64,000 bases of DNA, from NCBI RefSeq assembly GCF_036170895.1, contig NZ_CP108036.1:992001-1056000 (forward strand), read 5' to 3'. The DNA comes from Streptomyces erythrochromogenes. GTDB lineage: Bacteria; Actinomycetota; Actinomycetes; Streptomycetales; Streptomycetaceae. Positions 50,615 to 60,937 of this stretch are shown piece by piece (position 1 is the first letter of the stretch; every line of letters begins with the position of its first letter). A program made the translations under genes and the position numbers. The notes under the pieces were generated by a model that ran no database searches, was not told where the DNA came from, and worked only from the letters and a program-made list of their open reading frames with translations.

Positions 50615-51748
50615 TCAGGTCACCAGCTGATCACCGTGGTCGCCTTGGAGCATGTGGCGACGTTGCTCTTCGCGCGTGGAGTAGGTGGCTGCGCGGATCG
50701 CCTCGTCGCTCTCCAAGCCCGATCCCAGCGCGCCGGCCACCGTGGCGACCGAAGCGACGAACCAGGACAACGTCAAGTACTCCGTGGCGTGCAGCGGGGT
50801 TCCTGTCGTGGAAGCGAACACCCGGTCGTTGAGGATGAACAGCGCCCACACCAAGTTGATGACCATCAATCCCACGTAGCAGACGAGCGCCCCGATACCG
50901 ACGGTGAGGACCGTCGAGGTGTTGTAGAGCCGCGCCCTCTGCCTCGCCTCCGGCGATCCCTCCGTCGATCGGTGCCACAGCTCCCCGTCCACGATCAGCC
51001 AGCCGATCATGAGTCCGACGGACCCGACCATGGCGATCACGAGGCGTGGCGCGCTCAGGGCACCGGAGAGGCTCCAGGTGGTGGAGTCCAGGGTGGCGAT
51101 GGCTCCCGTGGCGAGTGCGGCCGCCAGGGCTTTCGACAGGCCCGACACCAAGCGCCAAGGCCGGTTCGCGCGGACCATACCGACGAGCACCCGCAGGTAG
51201 CCGCGCGGCCCGCTGACGATGTACCGGAGATCGGCAGCCTCCTCGTCACCGACCTGGCCCCGGTGGACAGGCGCGAGACGACCGGCGAAGGGGCCCGGAA
51301 GCGGCTGACTCCGCGGAAGCCCCTCCGCCCCGGTGGCCTGCGGACCGGCCAAGCCGAGCACGGCTTCTTCCACGGCCCGCCGGGCCCTCGTCTGCAGCCG
51401 CAAGCCCCCCAGGGAAGGAAGGGACAGCAGCGCCAAGCCGTGTTCGTGACTCAGATCCACAAGAATCCTGCGCCCGTGTGAGTGCAGCGGAAGGTCGGTG
51501 AGGGCCACCACGATGTCCCAGTTCTCCGCACTTGCGCGCTCCATGATCCGGCGCATCAAGGTGTGCGGGTCCTCGGTCCCCGAGGTGAAGGGCTCGCTGA
51601 CCACCTTGACGTCGAAGCGACGTCCCTGGCCCGCCTTTTCGGCGAGCCGGTCAGGAAGCATCCGGGCGATGCGCCGCGCGACGTCCGTGGGCGCGTCCGG
51701 ATCGGCCAGGAGAGCTACGACCGTGACGCCCTGCGACGACTCCCGCAC
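50615..51748 (-). CDS. Membrane protein of unknown function with N-terminal soluble domain
   Basis: 377 residues from the GTG at 51748 (GAGGAGG about ten bases upstream); an ATG at 51856 would add 36 unconvincing residues. The N-terminal half (about 1-150) is alpha/beta-like (VTVVALLADPDAPTDVARRI, WDIVVALTDLPLHSHGRRIL). Four membrane helices follow (ALAAALATGAIATLDS, LVIAMVGSVGLMIGWLIVDG, GIGALVCYVGLMVINLVWAL, WFVASVATVAGALGSGLES). The end is charged. It lies 132 bases after the flavoprotein gene on the same strand and may end the chaperone operon. No family recognised. Confidence 0.7.
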   Translation of the reverse strand: MRESSQGVTVVALLADPDAPTDVARRIARMLPDRLAEKAGQGRRFDVKVVSEPFTSGTEDPHTLMRRIMERASAENWDIVVALTDLPLHSHGRRILVDLSHEHGLALLSLPSLGGLRLQTRARRAVEEAVLGLAGPQATGAEGLPRSQPLPGPFAGRLAPVHRGQVGDEEAADLRYIVSGPRGYLRVLVGMVRANRPWRLVSGLSKALAAALATGAIATLDSTTWSLSGALSAPRLVIAMVGSVGLMIGWLIVDGELWHRSTEGSPEARQRARLYNTSTVLTVGIGALVCYVGLMVINLVWALFILNDRVFASTTGTPLHATEYLTLSWFVASVATVAGALGSGLESDEAIRAATYSTREEQRRHMLQGDHGDQLVT

Positions 51749-51880
51749 GACCGGACCATCCTCCTCGGCTGTGCTCCGCGATTGCAAGGGTTCACAGGAT
51801 GCCCCGGGGTGGAGGCGAAGCCGTGGTGACACGCTGTCCGTACGGGGTGGGGCCATGTGTCGGGTCCGTCAGGGGCCGGG

Positions 51881-53638
51881 TCAGCGCGAGGACACGGGCC
51901 CGCCCGCTTCCGGCCGGCGTCCCTCGGGGCCGACGGTGACCAGGTTTCCCTTCCGTTCCCGGTGCTCGTGCACGAGGCGGATCGCCATGGCGCCTTCACC
52001 GGTCGCCGAGGCCACCCGTTTCACCGAGCCGCTCCTGACGTCGCCGGCGGCGAAGACCCCGGGCAGGGTGGTCTCCAGCAGCATCGGATCGCGGCCCAGT
52101 GAGGCCCACCGGTTCGTATCGGCCACCGCCCCGGCGTCGGCGCCGGTGAGCACGAAGCCCCTCTCGTCCAGAGCCAGCACGCCCTTGAGCCATTCCGTGC
52201 GCGGCCGGGCGCCGATGAACACGAACAGCGCCGCGGCCTGCAGCTCACGGCGCTCATGGCTTGCGTTGTCCTCCACCGTCAGCGACTCCAGCTTCTCCTC
52301 CCCAGCGACGCCCCGTACTTCGGTGTGGAGCAGCACCTCGATCTTGGGGTGCTGCTCCACCTGGTCCACCAGGTAGCGCGACATGTCCGCGTTGAGGTCG
52401 CTGCCCCGGACGAGGAGGTGGACCTCGGACGCGTGCTGGGCGAGGAACAGCGCCGCTTGTCCGGCGGAGTTCCCGCCGCCGACCACGGCGACCGGGTCGG
52501 CGCGGCAGAGGCCGGCCTCGTGGACCGTCGCCGCGTAGTAGACGCTGATCCCTTCCAGGCGGTCGATGCCGGGCACTTCGAGTCTGCGGTACCGCACGCC
52601 CGAGGCGAGCACCACGGCGCCGGCCCGGGTCCGGGAGCCGTCTGTGAACGTGACGATGTACTCATCGTCCTGCGGGGTGAGCGCGCTGACCTCCGCCGGC
52701 ACCATCAGGCGGGCGCCGAACTTGTGCGCCTGGAGCACCGCACGCTCGATGAGTTCGCCCCCGGAGATGCCGGACGGGAAGCCGAGGTAGTTCTCGATGC
52801 GGGACGAGGTCGCGGCCTGGCCTCCCGTGGCCACGGCGTCGACGGTGACCGTGGTGAGGCCGTCGGAGGCGCCGTACACGGCGGCGGCGAGTCCTGCGGG
52901 GCCCGCACCGACCACCATGACCTCGCACCGTTCGTTCTCGGCCGAGGGGGCGGGGGCGGGCAGCCCGATGAGCCGGGCGAGTTCGGCGTTGCTCGGATTG
53001 CGCAGGAGCCGCTCGCCCTGCCAGAGGACCACCGGTGTCTCCTCGGGACGGATGGCGAACCGGCGCAGCAGTGCCTCGGCCTCCTTGTCCCTCTCCAGAT
53101 CCACCCAGCGGTGGGGCAGCCGGTTGCGGGCGGCGAACTCGCGCAGCCGCAGCGTGTCCCGTGAGTAGCACGACCCCAGGATCCGGAAGCCGGCGCCGAG
53201 GCCGATGAGCAGGTACCTGCGGCCCAGGTAGGCGCGGAGGATCAGGTCGCCGAGGACGGGGTCGCTGCCGACCAGGGCGCGTTGCCGCTCCACCGGTACG
53301 GCAAGGATCTCGCCGGCCTCGCGCACCACGGCGGTGTTGAACGCTGCCTGGCCTTCCAGCAGTCCGAGTTCGCCCAGGAACCTGCCGGGTCCGTGGACCG
53401 CGACCGTGCGCTCGTCGGGGCCGCCCTGGTCGCTGAGGATTTCGACGGTCCCGCTGAGGATCACGAGGAACTCCCGGAACGGCTCGCCCTCGCGGTACAG
53501 CACCTCGTCCTCGGCGGTCCTGCGGCGCTCACCGTGCGCGCTGAGGTCCTCGAGCTGCTCCGGCGTGAGGCGCGGGAACGCCCCGTACCGGTCCGGTGTC
53601 TCGCGGACCGCACCCTTCTCGTGCTCGGCCGTGCTCAT
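51881..53638 (-). CDS. Three-domain flavoprotein: cNMP-binding, Trx-like, TrxR-like without CxxC
   Basis: 585 residues. Domain 1 (about 20-150) is a cyclic-nucleotide-binding fold (FREFLVILSGTVEILSD, GPGRFLGELGLLEGQAAF). Domain 2 (about 155-235) is glutaredoxin/thioredoxin-like (ILGSCYSRDTLRLREFAARN, EETPVVLWQGERLLRNPS). Domain 3 (about 245-585) is a thioredoxin-reductase-type FAD/NAD(P)H unit (VVGAGPAGLAAAVYGASDG, GGQAATSSRIENYLGFPSGI, VVGGGNSAGQAALFLAQHA, GVFAAGDVRSGSVKRV). Where TrxR has the CATC redox motif, this protein has SVYYAATVHEAG, so the usual active-site cysteines are absent. The start codon overlaps the UBP-zinc-finger stop (TGATG). Confidence 0.9.
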   Translation of the reverse strand: MSTAEHEKGAVRETPDRYGAFPRLTPEQLEDLSAHGERRRTAEDEVLYREGEPFREFLVILSGTVEILSDQGGPDERTVAVHGPGRFLGELGLLEGQAAFNTAVVREAGEILAVPVERQRALVGSDPVLGDLILRAYLGRRYLLIGLGAGFRILGSCYSRDTLRLREFAARNRLPHRWVDLERDKEAEALLRRFAIRPEETPVVLWQGERLLRNPSNAELARLIGLPAPAPSAENERCEVMVVGAGPAGLAAAVYGASDGLTTVTVDAVATGGQAATSSRIENYLGFPSGISGGELIERAVLQAHKFGARLMVPAEVSALTPQDDEYIVTFTDGSRTRAGAVVLASGVRYRRLEVPGIDRLEGISVYYAATVHEAGLCRADPVAVVGGGNSAGQAALFLAQHASEVHLLVRGSDLNADMSRYLVDQVEQHPKIEVLLHTEVRGVAGEEKLESLTVEDNASHERRELQAAALFVFIGARPRTEWLKGVLALDERGFVLTGADAGAVADTNRWASLGRDPMLLETTLPGVFAAGDVRSGSVKRVASATGEGAMAIRLVHEHRERKGNLVTVGPEGRRPEAGGPVSSR

Positions 53639-53901
53639 CAGACCAGCGCCTCGTGGACGAAGCACCAGCGCCAGTCCTCTCCCGGCTCGAAGGACTGCAC
53701 GACGGGGTGACCGACGCTCCCCGCATGCCGCCTGGCGTGCTTGAGGGGGGAGGAATCGCAGCAGCCGACGTGCCCACAGGTGAGGCACAGGCGCAGGTGG
53801 AGCCACGGGGACTGCTCCCTGAGGCACTCCTCGCAGCCCTGCGGGGTACGCGGCGTCACTGGGCGAACCATCGCCAGGTGCGGGTCGGGAATCGTGGCCA
53901 T
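53638..53901 (-). CDS. UBP-type zinc-finger protein
   Basis: 87 residues. Zinc ligands follow the zf-UBP pattern: GCEECLREQSPWLHLRLCLT, CGHVGCCDSSPLKHARRHAG, SVGHPVVQSFEPGEDWRWCF. In eukaryotes this fold binds the free C-terminus of ubiquitin; in bacteria its ligand is unknown. The stop overlaps the start of the flavoprotein gene (TGATG), so the two are translated together. AAGGA lies nine bases before the ATG. It is located 71 bases after the thioredoxin gene. Confidence 0.9.
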   Translation of the reverse strand: MATIPDPHLAMVRPVTPRTPQGCEECLREQSPWLHLRLCLTCGHVGCCDSSPLKHARRHAGSVGHPVVQSFEPGEDWRWCFVHEALV

Positions 53902-53972
53902 GAGGGTTTTCCTTCCGTGAAGTGGGCCTGATCGGCCGCGGCCGGCGATGGTCTTCCTCAGCACAGTCGCCT

Positions 53973-54431
53973 TCACCCTCCCGCAGTGGTCTGCCGGCCC
54001 GCCACCGCCTGCTCGACCCAGGAGCGCAGGACGGGCGCGGGTGCCGCGCCGGCCTGCCGGGCGAGCGTCTCGCCCCGGTCCAGGACGAGCAGGGTCGGCA
54101 CCGCCTGCACCTCGAACCGCCGACTGAGCCGTGGGTTCTGGTCGACGTCGACCTTGACGAGCTTGATCTGTCCGGCGAGGTCCCGGGCGACCTGTTCGAG
54201 GGCTGGGCTGACCATGCGGCAGGGGCCGCACCAGGTGGCCCAGAGGTCGACGACGACGGGCACCGTGGCGTTGTCGGCGACCTCGGCGAAGTCGCCGTCG
54301 CCCGCGTCGACGACCCAGGGCAGTGGCTGCTTGCAGTGGCCGCATCGGGGCCGTCCCTCGGCGGCCACGGGAATCCGGTTGCCGCGACCGCAGTTCGGGC
54401 AGGTCACCGTGGTCGTCCGGGTGGTGTTCAC
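53973..54431 (-). CDS. trxA: Thioredoxin with N-terminal zinc ribbon (Trx2 type)
   Basis: 152 residues. An N-terminal zinc ribbon has two CxxC pairs ([18 protein letters not shown]), as in Trx2. A thioredoxin domain follows with the active site [20 protein letters not shown] and the cis-Pro loop [15 protein letters not shown]. Trx2-type proteins reduce disulfides and resist oxidative stress; zinc-ribbon oxidation can tune activity. The GTG start overlaps the ClpB stop by four bases (GTGA), so synthesis is coupled to the disaggregase. Confidence 0.93.
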
Positions 54432-57067
54432 GCCGCCCTCGCTTCCCGGTCGTCCTCCTGCTGGTCGTAGGTGACCACCAGCTCTCCGTGCTCGGCGTCG
54501 ACGCGCACCGTCGCACCGTCCTGGACGTCGCCGCGCAGGAGGGCGCGTCCGACCAGCGTCTCGACCTCGTGGGAGATGTAACGCCGCAGCGGCCGGGCCC
54601 CGTACACCGGGTCGTAGCCCTGATGGGCAATCACCACCCGTGCAGCGTCAGTGAGTTCGACGGTAATGCGGCGCTCGGCGAGCCGCCGCCGCAGCTCGTC
54701 GAACTGAAGCTCCACGATCCGCTCGATCTGCCGCTCACCGAGCGGCTTGAACAGCACGATGTCGTCGACGCGGTTGAGGAACTCCGGGCGGAAGTGCCCG
54801 CGCAGCTCGCCCATCACCAGGGCGCGGGCGTCGGGCTTGATCTCACCCTCGGCGGTGGCACCGTCGAGGAGGTGCTCGGAGCCGATGTTGGACGTCATGA
54901 TGATCACGGTGTTGCGGAAGTCGACGGTGCGGCCCTGCGCGTCGGTGATGCGACCGTCGTCGAGCATCTGGAGCAGCGTGTTGAAGACATCGGTGTGCGC
55001 CTTCTCGACCTCGTCGAACAGGACGACCGAGTACGGCTTGCGGCGCACGGCCTCGGTGAGCTGGCCGCCCTCCTCGTAGCCGACGTATCCGGGCGGTGCG
55101 CCCATGAGCCGGCTGACGGTGTGCCGCTCCTGGTACTCGCTCATGTCGAGGCGGACCATGTTGTCCTCGGAGTCGAACAGGGTCCGGGCGAGGGTCTTGG
55201 CCAGCTCGGTCTTCCCGACGCCGGTGGGGCCGAGGAAGATGAACGAGCCGATGGGACGGCGGGGGTCGCGGATGCCGGAGCGGGCACGGATGATGGCGTC
55301 GGTGACGAGCTTGACCGCCTCGTCCTGGCCGATGACGCGCTCGCGCAGGATCTCGTCGAGGCGCAGCAGCTTCTCGCGTTCGCCCTCCTGGAGGCGGGCG
55401 ACGGGGACGCCGGTCCAGGCCGCGACGATCTCGGCGATCTCCTCCTCGGTGACGACCTCGCGCAGCAGCCGGTTCTGACCTTGTTTGACGGCCAGTTGCT
55501 CCTCCTCCGCGGCGAGTCGGCGCTCCAGGTCCTGGAGGCGGCCGTAGCGCAGTTCGGCGGCGCGGTTGAGGTCGTAGGCGCGTTCGGCCTCCTCGGCATC
55601 GTGGCGGACCTGTTCCAGTTCCTGGCGCAGTTCCTGCACGCGGCGGATCGCCTGCCGTTCGGCCTCCCACTGGGCGCGTTTGGCGTCGGCCTCGCCGCGC
55701 AGGTCGGCCAGTTCCCTGCGCAGCTCCTCCAGGCGTGTCTTGCTGGCGGGGTCGGTCTCCTTGGACAGGGCGGCATCCTCGATCTCCAGCCGCGTGACGC
55801 GGCGGGTGATCTCGTCGAGTTCGGCGGGCATCGAGTCGATCTCGGTACGCAGCCTGGCGCACGCCTCGTCGACGAGGTCGATGGCCTTGTCGGGCAGGAA
55901 CCGATCGGTGATGTAACGGTGGCTGAGGGTGGCCGCGGAGACCATCGCGGTGTCCTGGATCTTCACGCCGTGGAAGACCTCGAGGCGTTCGCGCAGTCCG
56001 CGCAGGATGGAGATGGTGTCCTCCACGCTGGGCTCCTCGACCAGGACCTGCTGGAAGCGGCGTTCGAGGGCGGCGTCCTTCTCGATGTGCTTGCGGTACT
56101 CGTCGAGGGTGGTGGCGCCGATCATGTGGAGTTCGCCGCGGGCCAGCATCGGCTTGAGCATGTTGCCCGCGTCCATGGCTCCTTCGGCGGCGCCTGCGCC
56201 GACGACGGTGTGGAGTTCGTCGACGAAGAGCAGGATGCGCCCTTCGGCGGCCTTCACCTCGGACAGTACGGCCTTCAGGCGTTCCTCGAACTCGCCGCGG
56301 TACTTGGCGCCGGCGACCAGGGAGCCCATGTCCAGGGCGAACACCGTCCTGTCGCGCAGGCCCTCGGGGACGTCGCCGCGAACGATGCGCTGGGCCAGGC
56401 CCTCGACGATGGCGGTCTTGCCGACGCCGGGGTCGCCGATGAGGACGGGGTTGTTCTTGGTCTTGCGGCTGAGGATCTGGGTGACGCGGCGGATCTCCGC
56501 GTCACGGCCGATGACCGGGTCCAGCCGACCGGACCGAGCCTCGAGGACGAGGTCGCGTCCGTACTTCTCCAGGGCCTCGTAGGCCACTTCGGGGTTCGCG
56601 GAGGTGACGCGCTGGTTGCCGCGGACCTGGGTGAGCGCGCTCAGGAACGAGTCCCTGGTGATGCCGGCCTGTTTGAGCAGTCGCCCGGCGGCGGTCGAAG
56701 AGCTCTCCTCGGCCAGGGCGAGCAGGAGGTGTTCCACGGACACGTACTCGTCCTTGAGGCGTTTGGCCTCCCGCTCGGCGGCGTCGAGCAGGTGGGCGAG
56801 GCGCTGGGTGACGAAGACCTGGCCGGGTGCCGCGCCGGGGCCGGTGACCTTCGGGCGGCGGGAGAGTTCCTCGCGCACGGCCTCGCGCAGTCCCTTCGGC
56901 TCCTTGCCGGCCTGCTCCAGCAACCGCGGGATCAGACCGTCCTCCTGATCGAGGAGTGCGAACAGCAGGTGTTCCCCGTCGACCTCGGTGTGCCCCATGC
57001 GGCCGGCCGCGGTCTGGGCCTCCTGGAGGGCTTCCTGGGACTTCTGGGTGAGACGGTTCATGTCCAT
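54428..57067 (-). CDS. clpB: ClpB disaggregase
   Basis: 879 residues. Clp_N repeats at about 1-145; AAA1 with Walker A GDPGVGKT (about 205) and Walker [10 protein letters not shown]; a full M-domain coiled coil (about 405-525, with [20 protein letters not shown]), which distinguishes ClpB from ClpA/C; AAA2 with GPTGVGKT (about 605), [11 protein letters not shown] and the sensor-2 motif YGARPLRR. ClpB with DnaK pulls apart aggregated proteins. The first of two ATGs (57067) is used, 10 bp inside the cbpM end. No ClpP-binding loop is recognised. Confidence 0.97.
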
Positions 57068-57465
57068 GGGGGTGTTTCACTCCTCGTGCCGCGGCCGCGC
57101 AGGGCGGCTTCGAGCAGGCTGATGCGGTCGAGCAGGTCGAGCACCAGGCCGATGGATGCGTAGTTGAGGCAGAGTCCGGTGCGCAGCCGCTGGATGCGGG
57201 CGAGGACCGCCGGGGCCGTGGGGTCGAACACCAGGTGTCCCGCGGCGTCGCGTCCGGCGTCGATCAGGCCGAGGGCGACGAACCGCCGGATCAGATCGGG
57301 GTGGAGGCCCGAGCGACGGGACACGGCGTCGAGGGAGAGCCTGGGGGCGGGCACGAGCGCGTACCGGACGGCCGTCGAGGCGGTGAGGTCGGCGCCCGTT
57401 CGTACCGGACGGTTGCCCGCGCCGGCCCGGCCGGGGCCTGACGCTCCCACGGGTGGTTCGTTCAT
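57058..57465 (-). CDS. CbpM-like chaperone modulator (MerR-type fold)
   Basis: 135 residues. After a disordered N-terminus (about 1-35) comes a MerR/CbpM-like helical fold: [40 protein letters not shown], then [20 protein letters not shown] and a terminal leucine-rich helix [13 protein letters not shown]. CbpM binds the J-domain of the neighbouring DnaJ-like protein and inhibits it; some relatives bind DNA like HspR. A TGATG overlap with the dnaJ stop and a 10-bp overlap with clpB show tight coupling. Confidence 0.82.
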
Positions 57466-58412
57466 CACGTCCTCCTGGGGTCGTACGAGGAGGCGGCGGC
57501 GAGCTCCGCGAACAGTTCGCGCTCCCGGTCGCCGAGGGTGGGTGGCACCACGATGCGGAGTTCGGCGTACAGGTCGCCGTTCGCGCCGCGCGGGTTCGGC
57601 ATGCCCTCGCCGCGCAGCCGCAGCCGCCGGCCGCTGGACGAGCCCGCGGGCACCGTGACCTTGGCCGTGCCGCCGCCGGGGGTGGGCACCGGCACGGTCG
57701 CGCCCAGGGCCGCCTCCCAGGGGGTCACCGGGACCTGGACGTGCACGTCGCGGCCGTCCAGCCGGAACCGGGGGTGGGGCTGGATACGCACGCGCAGGTA
57801 CAGGTCGCCCGCGGCGGCGTCACCACTGCCCCGGCCGCCCTCGCCCGCCAGCCGGATGCGCTGCCCGTCGGTGACGCCCGGCGGCACGTCGACCTCGTAC
57901 CGCCGCGGCTGCCCGGTGGGACCGGCGAGCGTGACGGTGCGACGGCCGCCTCGGTACGCCTCCTCGACGGTGAGCGACAGTTCGGCCTCCTGGTCCGCTC
58001 CGGGGACGCTCCCCCGGGCGGCGCCGGCTCCGAACATGGAGCCGAACAGGTCCTCGATGTCGATGCCCTCCGCTCCGAAGTCGTCTCCGAAGCCGGCGTA
58101 CCGGACCCGAGGGCCGCCCCCGCCTGCGGTCGTCCGGCCGCGGAAGCCGCCGCCCGCTCCCGCCGCGACCCGTTCGTCGTAGTCCTCCGGGATCTTGCGG
58201 AAATCCTCGCCGAAGCGGTCGTAACGGGCCCGGGTCTTGGGATCGGACAGGACGCTGTATGCCTCGTTGAGGTCCTTGAAGCGCTCTTCCGCCCCGGGGT
58301 CCTTGTTGACGTCGGGGTGGTGCCTGCGGGCGAGTTTGCGATATGCCTGCTGGATCTCGTCCTGGCTCGCGGACCGCGACACCCCGAGCGCCTCGTAGTA
58401 GTCCCGCGCCAT
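57465..58412 (-). CDS. dnaJ: DnaJ/CbpA-type co-chaperone without zinc finger
   Basis: 315 residues. J-domain at about 1-68 with [20 protein letters not shown], the HPD tripeptide in [10 protein letters not shown] and RARYDRFG. A Gly/Phe-rich linker follows, then two C-terminal beta-domains ([54 protein letters not shown]). The cysteine-rich zinc domain of type I DnaJ is absent, so it is a type II, CbpA-like J-protein. It stimulates DnaK ATPase and delivers substrates. It lies six bases after grpE. Confidence 0.94.
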
Positions 58413-58418
58413 GACCGG

Positions 58419-59027
58419 TCACTCCCGCTTCGCGACGGTCACGGCGGCGGGCCTGAGCTGCCGCTCGCCGTTCCCGTAGCCGGGGCGCAGTACCTCGACG
58501 ACCGTGCCCGGTGCGGCGTCCGGGTCCTGGACGACGCCGACCACCTCGTGCCGGGCCGGGTCGAAGGGGACCCCGGTCTCCGCGTGCCGCGGGTAGCCGA
58601 GCAGTTCGAGGACGTTCACCGCTTGGTCGCTTACGGCCCGGATGCCCTCCACGATCGCGCCCGGATCGGCGCCCGCGTGGGTCAGGGCGAGTTCGAGGTT
58701 GTCGAGGACGGGCAGGAACGCGGCCGCCGTGCGGGCACGCTCCACCGCCCGTTCGCGCTCCAGTTCCCTGGCGTGACGCTTGCGGAGGTTGTCGAGGTCG
58801 GCGAGTGCGCGCCGCCAACGGTCCTCCAGTTCCTGGATCGCGGTCGTGTACTCGTCCTCGGCGGACGCGGGGCCGGCGGCATCGGGTCCCGGTTCGCCGT
58901 TCGCCGCTCCGTGCCGGGACGGGCCCGGTTGGGGCAGGTCCCCTCGAGGCGGGGGTCCGGCTCCTTCCGGGACCGGTTCGGCCGGATCCGGCGCGGCCCG
59001 GTCGGGTTCCTGGGGGTAGGTGGGCAT
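58419..59027 (-). CDS. grpE: GrpE nucleotide exchange factor
   Basis: 202 residues. A disordered Pro/Glu-rich N-terminus (about 1-55) precedes a long coiled-coil helix (YTTAIQELEDRWRRALADLD, NLRKRHARELERERAVERAR) and the compact C-terminal beta-domain (GVPFDPARHEVVGVVQD, EVLRPGYGNGERQLRPA). GrpE releases ADP from DnaK. ATG 59027 has GAGGCG upstream within the dnaK end; only eight bases separate the genes. Confidence 0.94.
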   Translation of the reverse strand: MPTYPQEPDRAAPDPAEPVPEGAGPPPRGDLPQPGPSRHGAANGEPGPDAAGPASAEDEYTTAIQELEDRWRRALADLDNLRKRHARELERERAVERARTAAAFLPVLDNLELALTHAGADPGAIVEGIRAVSDQAVNVLELLGYPRHAETGVPFDPARHEVVGVVQDPDAAPGTVVEVLRPGYGNGERQLRPAAVTVAKRE

Positions 59028-59035
59028 GGCGCGCC

Positions 59036-60937
59036 TCAGCCCTTGTCGAACTCGGCGTCGATGACATCATCGTCACCGCCACCGCCACTCGTGGGACCGC
59101 CGGTGGCGGCGTCCTGGGCGGGACCTCCGCCCGTAGTGGCGGCGCCCTGGTGGGCCGCCAGCCCGGCGAGCACCTGCTGGAGTTCGGAGGTCAGGGGGCG
59201 CACGCGTTCCACGGCCGCCTCTTCCTTGACCGCCGCCCGGGCGTCCGACACGAGCATCTCGCCGCGTGCCTTCTCGTGCGCGGGCGCTGCGTCGCCCAGT
59301 TCGGCGAGACGCTTCTCGACCTGGTACGCGACGGCGTCGAGTTCGTTGCGGGCGTCGACGGCCTCGCGAAGTGCCTTGTCCTGGCCCTGGTTGCTTTCGG
59401 CCTCCTGGACCATGCGTTCGACCTCGCTGCGGTCCAGGTTGGAGCTCTCGCTGATGGTGATGCCCTGTTCCTTGCCGGTGTCCCGGTCACGGGCCTTGAC
59501 CTCGAGGATGCCGTTGGCGTCGATGTCGAAGGTGACCTCGATCTGTGCTTCGCCCCGCGGCGCCGGCCGGATGTCGGTGAGCTGGAACCGGCCCAGCACC
59601 CGGTTGTCGGCGGCCAGCTCGCGCTCGCCCTGGAGGACGACCACGTCGACGGCCGGCTGGTTGTCCTCGGCGGTGGAGAAAGTCTCGCTGCGGCGCACCG
59701 GGATGGTGGTGTTCCGCTCGATGATCTTCGTCATCACTCCGCCGCGTGTCTCCACGCCCAGCGACAAGGGGGTTACGTCGAGCAGCAGGACATCCTTGAC
59801 CTCACCCTTGAGCACCCCTGCCTGGATCGCGGCACCGAGGGCCACGACCTCATCGGGGTTGACGCTCATGTTGGGTTCCTTGCCGCCGGTCAGTCGGCGG
59901 ACCAGGGTCTGGACAGCGGGGATGCGGGTGGATCCGCCGACAAGGATGACCTCGTCGATGTCGCTCTCGCCGACCTTGGCGTCGGCGATGGCCTGCTGGA
60001 CCGGTCCCAGGCAGCGTTCCACCAGGTCGCCGGTGATCTGCTCGAACGTGGACCGCATGATCGAGTCGGTGAGGTGCTTGGGCCCGGCGGCGTCGGCGGT
60101 GATGAACGGCAGGCTGACCTGCGTCTGCGTCACCGAACTCAGCTCGGTCTTGGCCTTCTCCGCCGCCTCGAACAAGCGTTGCAGCGCCTGCGCGTCCTGT
60201 CGCAGGTCGATGCCGTTCTCCTTCTGGAAGTCGTCCGCGAGGTGGTCCACCAGGCGCCGGTCGAAGTCGTCGCCGCCCAGGTGGCTGTCGCCTGCGGTGG
60301 AGCGCACCTCCACCACGCCGTCGCCGACGTCGAGGATGCTCACGTCGAAGGTGCCGCCGCCCAGGTCGAAGACGAGGACGGTCTCGTGCTCCTTCTTGTC
60401 CACGCCGTACGCGAGGGCAGCCGCCGTCGGCTCGTTGATGATCCGCAGCACTTCCAGTCCCGCGATCCGGCCTGCGTCCTTGGTGGCGGTGCGCTGGGCG
60501 TCGTTGAAGTAGGCGGGCACCGTGATGACCGCCTCCGTGACCCGCTCCCCGAGCTGCTTGGAGGCGTCGTCGGTGAGTTTGCGCAGCACCTGTGCGCTGA
60601 TCTCCTCGGGCGCGTACAGCTTGTCGCGCACCTTGAAGCGGGCCGCCCCGCCGTCGCCCTCGACGACGTCGTACGCCACCGCCCTGGCCTCGTCGGAGAT
60701 CTCGTCGAAATGCCGGCCGATGAACCGCTTGGCCGAGTAGATGGTGCCCTTGGGATTGAGGATCGCCTGGCGCCGGGCCAGCTGGCCCACCAGACGTTCC
60801 CCGGTATCGGTGAAGCCCACCACGGACGGTGTCGTGCGGTTGCCCTCGCTGTTGGGCACGACGGATGGCTCTCCGCCCTCCCACACGGCGATCACCGAGT
60901 TGGTGGTGCCCAGGTCGATGCCCACTGCCTTGGCCAT
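59036..60937 (-). CDS. dnaK: DnaK (Hsp70) chaperone
   Basis: 633 residues. ATPase domain: [20 protein letters not shown], the phosphate loops [14 protein letters not shown] and [26 protein letters not shown]. The interdomain linker [13 protein letters not shown] is at about 380-392. The beta-basket follows, then the lid ending in the Gly-rich tail with DDDVIDAEF. It folds and protects proteins together with the downstream J-protein, GrpE and ClpB. It is the first gene of the operon. I see no copy of the HspR site (CTTGAGT-N7-ACTCAAG) in the 500 bases upstream, so regulation may differ from that of the main dnaK operon. Confidence 0.97.

Follow-up and report, generated by a model that had tools for sequence, protein, structure and literature searches.

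In 2011 Burroughs, Iyer and Aravind reportedly predicted redox signalling modules that pair a UBP zinc finger with a thioredoxin reductase (TrxR)-like flavoprotein fused to a cyclic nucleotide monophosphate (cNMP)-binding or receiver domain. A pair of this kind is encoded in the window analyzed here, the 64,000-nucleotide stretch from 992,001 to 1,056,000 of Streptomyces erythrochromogenes contig NZ_CP108036.1, at the end of a putative eight-gene operon running from dnaK to the flavoprotein, hereafter FLAV (L-numbers below are labels of the loci compared). As in the predicted modules, UBP genes of this genome sit with cNMP- or receiver-fused TrxR-like proteins in three of five cases (the window, L013 and L014); unlike in those modules, the pair is embedded in a dnaK-clpB-trx operon, an arrangement belonging to one part of the FLAV family.

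In the β- and γ-Proteobacteria, the transmissible locus of stress tolerance (tLST), or locus of heat resistance, is described as carrying an extra disaggregase and a thioredoxin, with dna-hsp20-clpG as its core (PMC8290217). The loci share mobile accessory protein-quality-control genes, an additional disaggregase and a thioredoxin, and PsiE, DUF308 (HdeD-type) and Hsp20 genes lie near some of the actinobacterial copies; they differ in that the present locus belongs to Actinomycetota and encodes a full DnaK-ClpB system with a TrxR-like flavoprotein. The tLST core dna-hsp20-clpG/clpK is absent from the window operon: a ClpG or ClpK identity of its disaggregase was ruled out (791.7 and 771.2 bits, respectively, against cut-offs of 1900), and a Pfam search found no Hsp20 among the eight genes. 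Our literature searches, with subscription papers outside their reach and some hit lists partial, returned no paper on a chaperone-flavoprotein operon or its plasmid carriage. The dnaK-to-FLAV operon therefore appears to be a new combination, with the tLST as an analog and with UBP/cNMP-TrxR modules reportedly predicted before.

We read the locus as a mobile protein-rescue operon whose FLAV supplies electrons from NAD(P)H, possibly to the operon thioredoxin, and put the probability of this reading at about 0.55. An accessory role in protein rescue is in itself quite probable; that FLAV is the reductase of the operon thioredoxin is a tentative proposal with the odds against it. The operon encodes a second complete DnaK-GrpE-DnaJ-ClpB disaggregase together with a thioredoxin of its own, a putative modulator of MerR type and a flavoprotein that is probably regulated. 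FLAV would transfer hydride from NAD(P)H to its FAD, in an arrangement that, to judge by the shape of the predicted model, resembles the flavin-reducing (FR) form of TrxR, and the electrons would leave it without a CxxC, most simply to the operon thioredoxin with help from residue C378. After heat or oxidative stress, the thioredoxin would in turn reduce client cysteines as ClpB and DnaK unfold aggregates. The CRP-like domain of FLAV (a receiver in paralogues) may tune it through dimer rearrangement or a ligand other than canonical cAMP, and the UBP finger would be an optional adaptor.

A fuller version, which we consider doubtful, would have a thiol-stripped TrxR, kept in the FR arrangement, act as an NAD(P)H switch or donor through C378 and so couple redox state to DnaK-ClpB in a transmissible actinobacterial rescue operon. 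A link between NAD(P)H status and disaggregation would, if true, be new to our knowledge, and the proteobacterial stress-tolerance islands would gain a mobile counterpart in the actinobacteria. With its single thioredoxin and its single TrxR-like protein without CxxC, the operon is also a well-defined system in which to test the role of cNMP- and receiver-fused TrxR-like proteins and of bacterial UBP fingers.

Operon anatomy and the accessory chaperones

Eight tightly spaced genes run on the minus strand from position 60937 down to 51881, dnaK through FLAV, each at the place given by an earlier reading of the window from its letters alone (the sequence-only reading). They are listed here with the gene that follows them.

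59036..60937, minus strand: dnaK, accessory copy, 633 aa (NCBIfam TIGR02350, 961.9 bits against a cut-off of 822.6)
58419..59027, minus strand: grpE, 202 aa (Pfam PF01025, E 1.9e-32)
57465..58412, minus strand: CbpA-like dnaJ without a zinc-finger domain, 315 aa (only PF00226 and PF01556, DnaJ and DnaJ_C)
57058..57468, minus strand: MerR-family CbpM/HspR-like gene, 136 aa (PF13591, E 5.4e-9)
54428..57067, minus strand: clpB disaggregase, accessory copy, 879 aa (TIGR03346, 1349.5 bits against a cut-off of 1232.1)
53973..54431, minus strand: zinc-ribbon thioredoxin (TrxC-like) with WCGPC, 152 aa (TIGR01068, 105 bits against a cut-off of 96.8)
53638..53901, minus strand: stand-alone UBP zinc finger, 87 aa (PF02148, zf-UBP, 49.5 bits against a cut-off of 22.7)
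51881..53638, minus strand: FLAV, 585 aa (Pfam, AlphaFold model and fold searches)
50615..51856, minus strand: putative membrane protein, 413 aa, starting 24 bp downstream of FLAV

The junctions measure +8 (DnaK/GrpE), +6 (GrpE/DnaJ), -4 (DnaJ/CbpM), -10 (CbpM/ClpB), -4 (ClpB/Trx), +71 counted from the ATG (Trx/UBP) and -1 bases (UBP/FLAV). Overlap at most junctions, as the sequence-only reading had it, thus holds for four of seven, and the gene-to-gene distances make a single transcript of the eight genes likely. GrpE and DnaJ score above their Pfam cut-offs and below the NCBIfam equivalog cut-offs. The naming of the MerR-family gene as CbpM is not supported by NCBIfam, where the protein falls far under the cut-offs for both CbpM (31 against 138) and HspR (23.9 against 105); it is a candidate modulator or autoregulator of CbpM/HspR-like type. 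The translated thioredoxin contains CPNC..CGHC in addition to WCGPC, with the zinc-ribbon Pfam model below its cut-off (19.3 against 27.1).

The dnaK-clpB set of the window is accessory rather than core. The same genome holds another dnaK (G000:C1:4033726) and another clpB (4026177), both over their family cut-offs, to which the window copies are 54% and 56% identical, respectively. Scanning with the consensus of HAIR, the HspR operator, gave a site with one mismatch at the other genomic dnaK and clpB; the window has no such site even with three mismatches allowed, nor do the 564 bp upstream of its dnaK with five. Control of the window operon by HspR/HAIR was dropped for want of an operator. 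A SigR-like promoter, scanned with its consensus at up to one mismatch, was likewise not found in those 564 bp. Among ten Streptomyces-type copies, the sequence upstream of dnaK is similar beyond the ribosome-binding site over only a short stretch immediately preceding that site, and in some copies.

The 413-aa putative membrane protein has no Pfam match at E 0.01; a homologue occurs in the fetched stretch at 7 of 20 other loci examined. It is a possible member of the operon.

Linkage, family tree and plasmid carriage

A class sample of 393 genomes was searched for FLAV at E ≤ 1e-125. FLAV was found in 34 of them, at 35 places, so its distribution is patchy. At 30 of the 35 places (window included) at least three of dnaK, grpE, dnaJ, cbpM and clpB lie in the fetched stretch, which bears out the conserved linkage for which the sequence-only reading had proposed a co-occurrence check; fewer than three were seen at L128, L145, L146, L147 and L148, and contig ends cut some stretches. 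At 23 of the 35 the genes run clpB-(trx)-(ubp)-FLAV on one strand, within 2.5 kb in 21 of those. Searched in turn at E ≤ 1e-75, operon-type dnaJ occurs in 44 of the 393 genomes at 48 places, with FLAV within a 12-kb neighborhood at 29. Both genes are present in 32 genomes, FLAV alone in 2, dnaJ alone in 12 and neither in 347, an association with a Fisher p of ~1e-34 that ignores kinship.

Named FLAVs 98-99% identical to that of the window come from Streptomyces. Among the best 80 of 577 matches, the linked set is carried by members of Streptomyces, Actinacidiphila, Nocardia, Mycolicibacterium/Mycobacterium, Amycolatopsis, Nonomuraea, Actinoplanes/Paractinoplanes and Diaminobutyricibacter, and also by metagenome-assembled genomes (MAGs). 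Other FLAVs are found in Actinomycetota, Pseudomonadota, Acidobacteriota, Gemmatimonadota, Nitrososphaerota and other groups, and are unlinked in the stretches examined, several of them short contigs. A FLAV tree of 100 rows places its 24 chaperone-linked rows in a single clade (SH-aLRT 99) together with L047 and L056, which have only a Trx match nearby and no chaperone link. When the class sample was added (124 rows), the 51 linked rows required 5 label changes, against a mean of 39.6 in shuffles, a count that handles kinship at most partly; at least two of the changes are forced by well-supported branches. A single strict clade of all chaperone-linked FLAVs is contradicted by the five changes; the linkage is clustered and was gained or lost more than once. 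We therefore claim clustering for the linkage of FLAV to chaperones and not a single origin.

The neighbors might instead form a loose island of stress genes that were co-selected or co-transferred without cooperating, which would be compatible with any reading of FLAV. Consistent with this, the closest chaperone gene lies 2.5-6.7 kb from FLAV in L129-L131, L136 and L138-L141 and on the opposite strand in L025, L041, L129, L141 and L149, and the nearby Hsp20, general stress protein, PsiE and DUF308 genes vary. The overlapping stop and start codons in the window, the gene order fixed across many genera and the clustering of linked FLAVs in the tree argue against it, and we regard a loose island as unlikely.

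A search of a plasmid collection at E ≤ 1e-120 recovered FLAV on 13 records (10 Rhodococcus, 2 Streptomyces and 1 Nocardia), of which PLSDB types 3 as mobilizable and 10 as non-mobilizable. Ten of the records were examined by tblastn, and all ten have dnaK, grpE, dnaJ, cbpM, clpB, trx and FLAV; the UBP gene is present at nine and was not found by tblastn in L150. Plasmid neighbors include genes for general stress proteins, Hsp20, PsiE, FUSC, TniQ/TniB and recombinases. The operon is sometimes plasmid-borne and is best read as mobile.

Some individual loci depart from the common layout. At L052 a dnaK-clpB-trx operon lies between two FLAV genes, with a UBP-FLAV pair on its upstream side and, downstream, a FLAV in convergent orientation. 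FLAV is split in two pieces on a Rhodococcus opacus plasmid (L156:9501-11163). A DUF308 (HdeD-type) gene follows FLAV at L047:11748-12371 (Pfam) and, by similarity to L047, at L050:11690-12271 and L055:11642-12232, and in Streptomyces sp. BK208 an Hsp20 gene lies between trx and ubp (L039:8678-9175).

A flavoprotein stripped of its usual thiol sites

FLAV is, by prediction from its sequence and model, a TrxR-like flavoprotein in which neither of the customary reactive thiol sites is left. It consists of a CRP/cNMP-like domain (~20-145), a glutaredoxin-like domain (~146-232) and a TrxR-like part (~233-566), with Pfam matches to cNMP_binding (56.7 bits against 27.5) and Pyr_redox_2 (120.8 against 26.1) and an AlphaFold model of mean pLDDT 90.4. 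FLAV keeps the fold of low-Mr thioredoxin reductases along with their FAD GxGxxG and NADPH-binding motifs, and these motifs are almost invariant among relatives; it differs from those enzymes in having no redox-active CxxC. That site reads AATV at residues 369-372, so the absence of CATC and of the classical dithiol had been read correctly, and none of 126 cNMP-type FLAVs has a Cys in these columns. CxxC occurs elsewhere in 3 of the 126 (L073, L143 and L145); in L073 it begins at the C378 position, a hint that this spot can host a dithiol.

The second thiol site is lost in the domain that had been called Trx-like, which fold searches identify instead as glutaredoxin/mycoredoxin-like. The glutaredoxin fold, including the Pro before strand 3, is present, and the Mrx1 cysteines align to S159 and T162; the glutaredoxin cysteines are mostly Ser/Thr across the family, with Cys at catalytic position 159 in 8 of 126 FLAVs. 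Foldseek with this domain alone gave weak E-values (best 2.3e-3), the whole-model search was filled by TrxR-type chains and says nothing on other families, and none of 55 PDB sequence matches at E 1e-10 falls outside the TrxR part. The proposal that SCYSRD takes over catalysis was rejected: C157 lies two residues before catalytic position S159 and is found in 15 of 126 FLAVs. A link between C157 and UBP presence, which a first set of loci had suggested, was also discarded: a UBP match accompanies 33 chaperone-linked loci, and 18 of these lack C157. The only conserved thiol is C378, paired with a conserved E374. AhpF has N-terminal Trx folds whose CxxC is fed by the CxxC of its TrxR part; FLAV differs in having one glutaredoxin-like domain without CxxC.

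A cNMP-binding domain had been proposed from the sequence, and a CRP-like domain is indeed present, matching 4ev0 at E 7.4e-9. The phosphate-binding Arg of such domains (R82 of CAP), placed by hand alignment, is replaced by Ala99 in the window FLAV, and Arg occupies this column in 1 of the 123 FLAVs with a letter there. Cyclic nucleotide dependence is therefore doubtful, a further difference from the UBP-flavoprotein modules said to have been predicted, and cAMP gating at the canonical site was not adopted. Arg is found one column earlier in 24 of 126, so this domain may yet bind a ligand.

A characterized relative of like architecture is ATII-TrxR, a cNMP-TrxR described as 87% identical to a C. 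metallidurans protein; the accessible text, which mentions no assay with cAMP, reports that the purified enzyme binds FAD, has Km values of 5.2 μM for NADPH and 4.2 μM for NADH, and reduces DTNB and its thioredoxin, and it models Cys206, Cys223, Cys376 and Cys467 as redox cysteines (PMC6544261). From the salt and heat optima given there, we infer that contamination by host TrxR is improbable. ATII-TrxR belongs to another branch of the family and, within what that text allows, is likened to FLAV by cysteine spacing, not sequence. By spacing, Cys376 corresponds to the C378 position and Cys467 has no counterpart; the 206-223-376 spacing recurs in L085 (216, 233, 386) and in a C. metallidurans CH34 homologue (229, 246, 399, from one start), which contains no CxxC and may differ from the protein compared in that paper.

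The loss of both thiol centers with retention of the cofactor motifs would also suit a redox or NAD(P)H sensor that is no donor at all. Its FAD/NAD(P)H state, perhaps with C378 oxidation, would alter the shape of FLAV and so control CbpM, ClpB/DnaK or the UBP protein, with the thioredoxin served by an ordinary TrxR. N-terminal domains of signalling type (CRP-like or receiver) fit this, as does another TrxR-type match in the same genome (36% over residues 239-505), and so does a paralogue locus (L014:6720-10365) where receiver-Grx-TrxR, cNMP-histidine-kinase-like and UBP genes are consecutive. Proteins with receiver and output domains, however, usually have the C-terminal domain as effector. 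ATII-TrxR, moreover, is reported to turn over with DTNB, NADPH and thioredoxin (PMC6544261). We consider a pure sensor somewhat unlikely.

TrxR-like ferredoxin/flavodoxin NADP reductases (FNRs) likewise have a TrxR fold without CxxC, and they differ from FLAV in lacking cNMP or Grx domains (PMC10294844). They have a C-terminal residue that stacks on the FAD of the other subunit. Were FLAV to act like them, its acceptor would be a small molecule, or a ferredoxin or flavodoxin whose gene lies elsewhere, and its co-localization with chaperones would reflect general stress defense. TrxRs in the FR form match FLAV better, however; the structured C-terminal helix of the monomer model ends at ~566 with no FAD-stacking extension evident; and the annotations of ten plasmid regions, with incomplete gene tables, name neither a ferredoxin nor a flavodoxin. 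We consider an FNR-like role quite improbable.

Thioredoxin and the UBP finger as possible partners

A Trx match lies within 2.5 kb of 38 of the 51 chaperone-linked FLAVs and of 4 of 75 others: L072, and the three loci L047, L056 and L128, all closely related to the linked group. Several points tell against a rescue operon in which FLAV is the electron donor. The known TrxR route is closed to FLAV because it has no CxxC, we know of no electron route through a lone cysteine, and C378 itself is replaced in 6 of 124 aligned FLAVs. No Trx match lies within 2.5 kb of 13 of the 51 linked FLAVs. Unlinked FLAVs very rarely have a thioredoxin as neighbor, so that Trx may work for the chaperones alone. 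At the cut-offs used, FLAV is missing within 12 kb of 19 of the 48 operon-type DnaJ places, so the chaperones manage without it. The distant and opposite-strand chaperone genes described above, and the kinship left in the association test and label counts, count on the same side.

The UBP finger had been proposed to recruit proteins by their C-terminus. Its nearest solved relative is 2ida (108.9 bits). The counterpart of HDAC6 R1155, the Arg that contacts the ubiquitin C-terminus, is a Ser in a weak alignment (25 bits), and the window finger has no Arg in the stretch from its CxxC to the next His. Of the 51 chaperone-linked FLAVs, 33 have a UBP match within 1.6 kb (one of them, L118, a remnant only), as do 22 of the 75 others. 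An essential recruiter therefore does not fit, with no match within that distance at 18 of the linked FLAVs; a gene so often missing would be an optional partner.

Elsewhere in this genome, the UBP gene of L013 adjoins a receiver-Grx-TrxR gene, and another (L016:5786-6169) neighbors a Na+/H+ exchanger gene of opposite orientation. In a Rubrobacteraceae MAG, a receiver-TrxR gene is followed by three cNMP-histidine-kinase-like matches (L113:9566-15468).

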